Below the pieces are notes generated by a model. The model saw only the letters and a list, made by a program, of their open reading frames with translations, ran no database searches and had not been told where the DNA came from. Source: Myxococcota bacterium (GTDB taxonomy: Bacteria > Myxococcota_A > UBA9160 > SMWR01). Taken from it: a DNA stretch of 57,176 nucleotides. The position numbers and the translations under genes were made by a program. The stretch is from assembly GCA_039030075.1 (NCBI GenBank), contig JBCCEW010000032.1, forward strand, positions 1 to 57,176, in the 5' to 3' direction. Positions 43,517-44,610 of this stretch are shown here, piece after piece. Within the stretch, counting starts at the first letter, position 1. Every line of letters starts with the position of its first letter.

Positions 43517-43537
43517 GGTGACGCGAATTGTGTCACC
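43517..43537. promoter_or_regulatory. GGTGAC dyad upstream of the sigma-54 promoter
   Basis: GGTGAC (43517-43522) and GTCACC (43532-43537) form a perfect six-base inverted repeat around nine bases. It lies 26 bases after the methyltransferase stop and about 110 bases before the sigma-54 promoter, the usual distance for an activator binding site. It could also be part of a terminator; no T-run follows. Confidence 0.35.
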
Positions 43538-43645
43538 CGCTCGCGGTGGGCTGCCGGTGTGCTGCCGGCCCCGCTTCTTGCGCATTGCCGTGAATCGGGA
43601 CGAGAAACGAACGCTTAGGGCGTCAGTCGCCGACCGGGGCCTCGC

Positions 43646-43661
43646 TGGCACACGGATTGCT
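43646..43661 (+). promoter_or_regulatory. Sigma-54 promoter
   Basis: TGGCACACGGATTGCT matches the -24/-12 consensus: TGGCAC, five bases, TTGCT, with the GG and GC exactly 12 apart. Transcription should start near 43672, reading into the hairpin-rich region and not into a recognisable gene. It is the best sigma-54 site in the window. Confidence 0.7.
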
Positions 43662-43671
43662 CTAGCAGGGG

Positions 43672-43970
43672 TCACCACATACGGAGTCCCCACTCCAAAA
43701 CGATGTGCCCGGGCCGGCAGCCCCTCCCGTCGCGAAATGCGACGTGCCGGCCCGGGCTACTCGTTTCTGCGACTCCCGACGTCAGGCTCGACGGAAGCGA
43801 AGGCGTGCAGAAACGAGTCGGGCGCAGCGCTCCTCCGTCCCTGCTTCGGTCCGCAGTGAGGACGAAACTCCGCTCTCAGGCCGAGCGGATGTCGGAGTGC
43901 GCAGCCCGTGCCAGGGCCGGCAGGTCACGCGCGAATCCGGCCGACCCCGCGCCAGGCGGAATCGGCCGGA
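43672..43970 (+). ncRNA. Candidate structured RNA transcribed from a sigma-54 promoter
   Basis: The roughly 300-base stretch from the predicted start holds several hairpins. H1 is GGAGT/ACTCC (43683-43696). H2 is a perfect 13-pair stem (GCCCGGGCCGGCA 43707-43719 with 43745-43757) that continues, past an eight-base bulge, into CGTCGC/GCGACG with a GAAAT loop. H3 is a perfect 12-pair stem (ACTCGTTTCTGC 43759-43770 with 43807-43818). H4 has GTCC-CTGC/GCAG-GGAC (about 43837-43863) and ACTCCG/CGGAGT. H5 is a nine-pair stem (43936-43944 with 43962-43970) enclosing CCGC/GCGG. No credible protein is encoded. The Myxococcus sRNA Pxr is also sigma-54 driven and multi-hairpin; I claim analogy, not homology. 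The RNA runs tail-to-tail into the PEP-CTERM gene. Confidence 0.45.
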
Positions 43971-43983
43971 AGGGGGAATCGCG

Positions 43984-44610
43984 CTAGGCGAGGCTCTTGC
44001 GTCGCGCGCGGCTCGCGATCACGAGACCCGTGGCGAAGATCAGCGCCGCCGAGGGCTCGGGAACCGGGCGCTCCAGGTTCCAGTTGAAGTCACCGCGGTG
44101 CCAGTGCTGATCGTTGTAGAACCCGAGCCAGCTCGACAGACCGTACTCGTCGTTCTTGTCGTTGAGCCCGGTACCGAGCTGCGCCCAGTAGTCGTGCTTT
44201 CCGCCGATTCGGGTGATGTTGTAGCTGTCGAACGTCCCGTGGGTGGCCGTCAGGGTCCCCGCGACCGTCTTCGCGAACATCCAGTCGTCCTGGCGCTCGT
44301 GCCAGCCCGCGCCCTTCAGCGCGGTATGGCCGGCGTCGAGGTACTGCTGGGCCGTCTTGACGTCGCTGAAGGTCACGCTCAGCGCGTAGGTCTTCGAGGG
44401 ATCGGACTTCGAGTACAGAGCGCCCTCGAGGGTCCAGTGGTCGTCGTTCTTGGTGAACGTGCCGTGGGGATCGAAGTGCAGGTCGGTGGCCACGCCCGGC
44501 ACCCAGACGGCGTGCTTGTCGGGGTGATGAGCGGAAGCCTTGTAGAGAGTGCTGGCCGAGGCTGCCGCGGGCAGAGCGAGCGCGAGGGCCAAGACGAAGA
44601 TGCGCAACAT
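43984..44610 (-). CDS. PEP-CTERM sorted exported protein
   Basis: The 208-residue protein has a signal peptide (MLRIFVLALALALPAAASAS) and a Trp/His/Asp-rich body. Its C-terminus is classic PEP-CTERM: RPVPEPSAALIFATGLVIASRARRKS, with the motif at about 183-186, a hydrophobic segment and a basic end. Such proteins are exported and processed by exosortase. ATG 44610 has GGAG eight bases upstream; a longer frame toward 45129 is the shadow of the MFS gene. A sigma-54-like site lies 94 bases upstream of the start, which fits sigma-54 control of PEP-CTERM genes known in some bacteria. Confidence 0.88.
   Translation of the reverse strand: MLRIFVLALALALPAAASASTLYKASAHHPDKHAVWVPGVATDLHFDPHGTFTKNDDHWTLEGALYSKSDPSKTYALSVTFSDVKTAQQYLDAGHTALKGAGWHERQDDWMFAKTVAGTLTATHGTFDSYNITRIGGKHDYWAQLGTGLNDKNDEYGLSSWLGFYNDQHWHRGDFNWNLERPVPEPSAALIFATGLVIASRARRKSLA

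Follow-up and report, generated by a model that had tools for sequence, protein, structure and literature searches.

In the anti-Shine-Dalgarno sRNAs of alphaproteobacteria and staphylococci, a short C-rich single-stranded seed, CCUCCUCCC or UCCC, is complementary to ribosome-binding sites. The mycobacterial sRNA 6C/B11 has two C-rich loops, and B11 pairs with G-rich tracts at ribosome-binding sites (PMC10470900). Transcription of an sRNA under sigma-54 control is also an established theme, as in the case of Qrr1 (PMC10162802). In Myxococcus xanthus, which has no Hfq (PMC5684412), the sRNA Pxr is made from a sigma-54 promoter with an upstream enhancer region. Pxr is 108 nt long and forms three stem-loops (SL1-SL3), of which the SL1 loop is essential, and it lies directly downstream of the NtrC-type activator gene nla19/pxrR (PMC5684412, PMC5568312).

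We analysed a stretch of 57,176 nucleotides from a Myxococcota bacterium (contig JBCCEW010000032.1, the window), in which the original prediction had placed a sigma-54 promoter and a multi-hairpin RNA at 43517-43983. The reading as a regulatory RNA was strongly supported by the covariation, by the conservation of the promoter and the enhancer, and by downstream genes that are convergent or unrelated. We regard the existence of a sigma-54-controlled RNA at this locus as highly probable. The promoter, the putative enhancer, the fold, the invariant bulge and the T-rich tail were established by comparison of sequences, and the RNA is predicted to be about 98 nt long (about 43672-43769, + strand, both ends predicted) with a single conserved hairpin (Table 1). 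A search of the window against Rfam gave no match at the gathering threshold, and at E ≤ 10 the interval 43640-43990 gave chance-level matches to other families alone.

Table 1. Features of the sigma-54 RNA locus (positions in the window)
Feature	Position	Strand	Basis or remark
Enhancer dyad GTGACGCGAATTGTGTCAC, presumed site of a sigma-54 enhancer-binding protein	43518-43536	.	Conservation
Sigma-54 promoter -24/-12, TGGCACACGGATTGCT, TGGCAC-N5-TTGCT	43646-43661	+	Fits TGGCA-N6-TTGC
Variable 5' leader	43672-43706	+	Predicted start 12 nt after the -12 C
Conserved sRNA hairpin	43707-43757	+	Covariance-model matches, two-sided changes, fold z -6.1
Hairpin lower stem, 13 bp	43707-43719/43745-43757	+	
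C-rich 5' bulge, 8 nt, GCCCCTCC, consensus ACCCCTCC	43720-43727	+	Proposed seed for G-rich ribosome-binding sites
Hairpin upper stem, 6 bp	43728-43733/43739-43744	+	Continues the 13-pair stem
T-rich tail, probable intrinsic termination site	43758-43769	+	T enrichment

The hairpin at 43707-43757 has the order GCCCGGGCCGGCA-GCCCCTCC-CGTCGC-loop-GCGACG-TGCCGGCCCGGGC, and the 13-pair stem that had been pointed out originally proved to be real. The folding energy of the 54-base element was -41.5 kcal/mol (z -6.1 against shuffles), and the 99-nt RNA from the predicted start gave a z of -6.9 against shuffles. In an alignment of 79 loci, which was fitted to a covariance model and is therefore biased towards that structure, two-sided compensatory changes were found in 17/20 base pairs (151 cells), and 97.9% of the base-pair cells were in the paired state, with 46 further pair types. 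Shuffles gave 34.9 ± 4.6 cells, and slid controls gave 8-23 cells in 4-6 pairs. When 12 sequences were aligned with MAFFT and not fitted to the model, two-sided changes were seen in 6 pairs, compared with 0-1 in slid controls. The compensatory changes exceeded those in controls that preserve relatedness, as in a structured non-coding RNA. Covariation in relatives had been proposed as a check on the predicted RNA; the first hairpin passed it, whereas the downstream stems were not conserved.

The tip loop of the hairpin varies in sequence and length across the 79 loci, and the outer pairs of the lower stem are near-invariant. Base-pairing alone is insufficient to explain this near-invariance, and termination or protein binding could account for it. 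The conserved element is 63-70 nt long and changes length in single-base steps, which agrees with the earlier statement that the region holds no credible ORF. A protein-coding reading was rejected on these shifts by single bases and on the covariation of the stems.

The sigma-54 site of the original prediction held up. At 70/79 loci a strict TGGCA-N6-TTGC was present in the 140 nt that precede the hairpin; among control windows from these loci the figure was 69/12,028, with the real sites counted in. Six more loci retain GGCA-N6-TTGC, so that the GG-N10-GC core is found at 76/79, and a recognisable sigma-54 promoter was not found at three loci of the 79 (L151, L158 and L163). The sequences of the promoter, the dyad and the tail lay outside the hairpin covariance model. 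The source genome has a match to RpoN (PF04552; E 7.7e-62), as do 84/91 genomes of the class. With a conserved -24/-12 promoter, RpoN in the genome and a presumed enhancer site 80-200 nt upstream, the locus has the features expected of a sigma-54 transcription unit.

The upstream dyad had been put forward as a possible activator site. Its centre precedes the promoter by 119 nt. With family f12 set aside, a GTGACRCAAWTTGYGTCAC-like dyad with at least 11/15 specified positions was found at 62/69 testable loci and in 1.2% of control windows. The dyad, which precedes the -24 element by 106-150 nt, is therefore conserved, and binding of an activator to it is presumed. The site in the window is the sole zero-mismatch site in the source genome, and 18/21 sites with no more than one mismatch in 80 genomes of the order are at the RNA locus; from this distribution of sites, the activator would seem to have essentially a single target of high affinity. 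About 20 strong matches to Sigma54_activat were found in the source genome, and no enhancer-binding protein gene of this genome lies near a dyad-like site, so an autoregulated activator was rejected. The dyad was not found in the loci of family f12, which retain the promoter, and the activator in the order of this family may differ. These loci (L098, L106, L109, L111, L131, L136 and L143) mostly have an extra small hairpin in the leader and GGGA before the main hairpin.

A blastn search of the originally predicted interval against 60 relatives matched ten other genomes, nearly always in the first hairpin alone; one match (L007) was to the upstream dyad. Outside the matched stretch, these loci have sigma-54 sites and mostly also the dyad. 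From 12 sequences of the hairpin alone we built a covariance model (R1, 43705-43769), which detected the hairpin in 70/80 genomes of the order and in 78/91 genomes of the class, probably GTDB UBA9160. These genomes represent 45 genera and usually have one locus each. Outside the class, none of 288 phylum genomes was matched at E ≤ 0.001 (78/379 overall, all in the class). A broader model from the 79 loci gave weak matches alone outside the class. Those in family f18 were rejected as homologues and are plain terminators, and a match in G176 (E 5.6e-4; L295, G176:C73:22272-22329) was rejected as a terminator-like hairpin with no sigma-54 site. The f18 loci L293 and L294 carry GGTGACC-N-GGGTCA-type short-repeat arrays upstream of ordinary terminators. 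L295 has a large C-rich loop, AACCCCTCCCCC, in its terminator-like hairpin, and is possibly a distant relative or an analogue.

An exact-pattern scan for the hairpin in 84,980 named species gave 35 matches. Those with both the fold and a sigma-54 site were all MAGs, labelled Myxococcota, Myxococcales, Deltaproteobacteria, Proteobacteria or unassigned, and the remaining ones (Streptomyces, Xanthomonas etc.) had neither fold nor promoter. A repeat or mobile element was rejected: the hairpin has a single copy in the source genome and otherwise merely an antisense echo of itself. One genome, G008, has two different copies of the RNA gene (L089 and L101) on separate contigs, each with promoter and dyad, and these are either paralogues or the product of a mixed bin.

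The asymmetric bulge (A/G)CCCCUCC is near-invariant at the 79 loci while the stems change. The base counts along it are A70/G7, C76, C79, C79, C79, T78, C79 and C79, and positions 2-8 of the motif ACCCCUCC are identical in 76-79/79 loci. The hairpin thus contains an unpaired, invariant C-rich segment, as do anti-Shine-Dalgarno sRNAs. At locus L139 (G024), the leader contains a diverged tandem copy of the hairpin (G024:C400:14309-14374), which precedes the main hairpin by about 60 nt and retains ACCCCTCC in its bulge; this retention in a second copy appears to be an independent sign that the bulge is important. At locus L142 (G023), the main hairpin is immediately followed by a further, weak match to the model (G023:C341:21494-21556), in which GACCCCCCTC replaces the bulge.

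We consider it reasonably probable that the RNA is a stand-alone trans-acting sRNA, with a bulge that base-pairs to G-rich ribosome-binding sites. Its synthesis by sigma-54 polymerase would require the activity of a dedicated enhancer-binding protein, and the hairpin would terminate transcription and keep the C-rich bulge exposed. The bulge would then pair with GGAGGGG-type sequences at the ribosome-binding sites of several mRNAs and lower their translation, and the neighbouring genes would not be needed. We infer the stand-alone nature of the transcript, its start near 43672, its end near 43769, the dedicated activator and the GGAGGGG pairing. In 17 genomes of the family, about 54 sites of the form GGGAGGGGT-N2-9-ATG were found, against 17 for the reversed pattern; ordinary Shine-Dalgarno usage could equally produce this excess of about threefold. 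The screen of these 17 genomes yielded no credible recurrent orthologous start-site target. Two recurring pairs were examined and rejected: L192/L206 resembles an internal codon match, and L195/L240, which is metallo-hydrolase-like, shares just 27% identity. Near the starts of the neighbouring genes, complementarity to the bulge was equal to scrambled controls or slightly above.

The same conserved parts can be read differently. A sigma-54-made sRNA might serve as a decoy for a protein, such as a chaperone, a translational regulator or a ribosomal component, which would be held by the bulge and the invariant base of the stem. The near-invariance of the bulge, and likewise of the outer pairs of the lower stem, would suit a protein-binding bulged helix, and the screen of the 17 family genomes gave no recurrent base-pairing target. 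C-rich single-stranded motifs of sRNAs such as B11/6C, however, pair with G-rich ribosome-binding sites (PMC10470900). A terminator role also explains the near-invariant outer stem, because ordinary terminators elsewhere in the phylum share the GCGCCCGGGC stem. We therefore regard a decoy as unlikely, though worth keeping in mind beside the preferred reading of a base-pairing sRNA.

The tail that follows the hairpin is T-rich: in the 79 loci its T content is 49%, against 15% in the background, and 67/79 tails have at least 5 T in 12, against 3.2% of background 12-mers. At the other end, the leader is 6-109 nt long and differs in sequence between families. The widely kept gene order is mutS2, FAD oxidoreductase, HAD phosphatase, homocysteine S-methyltransferase (HMT), the RNA, MFS transporter, folC and TANGO2. 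The HMT gene is near 47 loci and elsewhere absent or off the contig; upstream it is replaced by other genes, for example at L105 and L112. The stem and its T-rich tail, flanked by genes on the + and the - strand, could be a terminator and nothing else, which would serve the upstream HMT gene or separate convergent genes, the promoter being fortuitous; similar stems do terminate elsewhere in the phylum. This reading, which we judge very improbable, leaves the invariant 8-nt bulge, the promoter at 76/79 loci and the dyad at 62/69 unneeded, and the element is kept at loci such as L105 and L112, where another gene, in the opposite orientation, takes the upstream place.

The RNA of about 300 bases with several hairpins, as originally proposed, was not borne out, and the conserved unit ends in the T-rich tail at about 43769. 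We give an equally small chance to a multi-hairpin RNA whose downstream stems function in the source species. Taken together, the 312 nt have a better fold than shuffles (z -4.7), and a 12-bp inverted repeat (43760-43818) overlaps the tail, but the low energy stems from the first hairpin. The stretch 43758-43822, which holds the 12-pair stem of the original prediction, gave a z of only -1.7 against shuffles, and 43822-43960 gave +0.1. In the blastn search of the 60 relatives, hardly anything past the first hairpin was matched, and no other genomic copies of the downstream stems were found in the source genome. Without conservation, and with a fold little or no better than shuffles, the downstream stems (43758-43983) were rejected as part of the RNA. 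The inverted repeat itself, CTCGTTTCTGC...GCAGAAACGAG, was not recovered in relatives and has no repeats in the genome; its role is perhaps that of a reserve terminator between the two convergent genes.

Least probable of all is that the RNA belongs to a downstream gene, as its 5' leader or as a riboswitch-like element: the RNA is structured and stands behind its own promoter, and some loci have other genes inserted downstream (strand checked for part of them), but no Rfam riboswitch was matched (chance-level matches alone at E ≤ 10), the tail is terminator-like, and the first recognised genes downstream are convergent with the RNA, among them MFS or folC no more than 400 nt away at 24 loci and a PEP-CTERM gene here. 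Wherever the MFS, folC and TANGO2-type genes were found downstream they were convergent with the RNA, which is therefore not their leader.

The sRNA reading does not depend on the neighbours that had been named as possible partners. A tie to surface proteins was suggested by the PEP-CTERM gene, which is convergent with the RNA in the source window and was found at 0/78 other loci. A tie to methionine genes is positional alone, given that HMT is near 47 loci and its start region has no enriched complementarity. A functional tie to either type of neighbour was thus rejected, with the PEP-CTERM gene restricted to the source, HMT inconstant and complementarity not enriched. The preferred reading of a trans-acting sRNA could be extended to a class-wide RNA switch with a private activator, an enhancer-binding protein with its high-affinity site essentially confined to this one RNA gene, in which the bulge of a terminator hairpin would globally affect translation initiation, through Shine-Dalgarno masking or as a decoy, as a master post-transcriptional regulator of the class; we offer this as speculation, about as unlikely as the decoy reading.

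Taken together, the data describe a previously uncatalogued, deeply conserved sRNA family in a class known almost solely from metagenomes. Promoter, enhancer, fold, seed and terminator are all independently conserved, which is rare in such a family. The bulge, dyad and promoter give a precise handle on how sigma-54 signalling leads to post-transcriptional control in the myxobacterial group, and the covariance model is suitable for deposition in Rfam.

Among the described systems, the anti-Shine-Dalgarno sRNAs differ from the new RNA in that ACCCCUCC is held in a bulge here, in another lineage and with no shared structure found. The RNA resembles 6C/B11 in a conserved structure that exposes C-rich single-stranded segments; it differs in having one C-rich asymmetric bulge in a probable terminator hairpin and a sigma-54 promoter, and it has no Rfam 6C match. 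With Qrr1, GlmY/GlmZ and CrcZ/CrcY it shares transcription of an sRNA under sigma-54 and enhancer-binding proteins, and these are unrelated to it in sequence and structure. To our knowledge, a dyad essentially exclusive to the RNA has not been described for any of them. The parallel with Pxr drawn in the original prediction holds for sigma-54 control and size, along with the enhancer region, the stable stem-loop and the wider myxobacterial group, but fails for structure and genomic setting. The new RNA has one conserved bulged hairpin instead of three stem-loops, and it lies between mutS2/FAD-oxidoreductase/HMT and MFS/folC with no linked activator. Because these structural and positional tests fail, we do not file the RNA as Pxr, from which it is set apart by the published description of Pxr. 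No public RNA family describes the RNA, which is a new sRNA family of a known kind, the sigma-54 sRNA.
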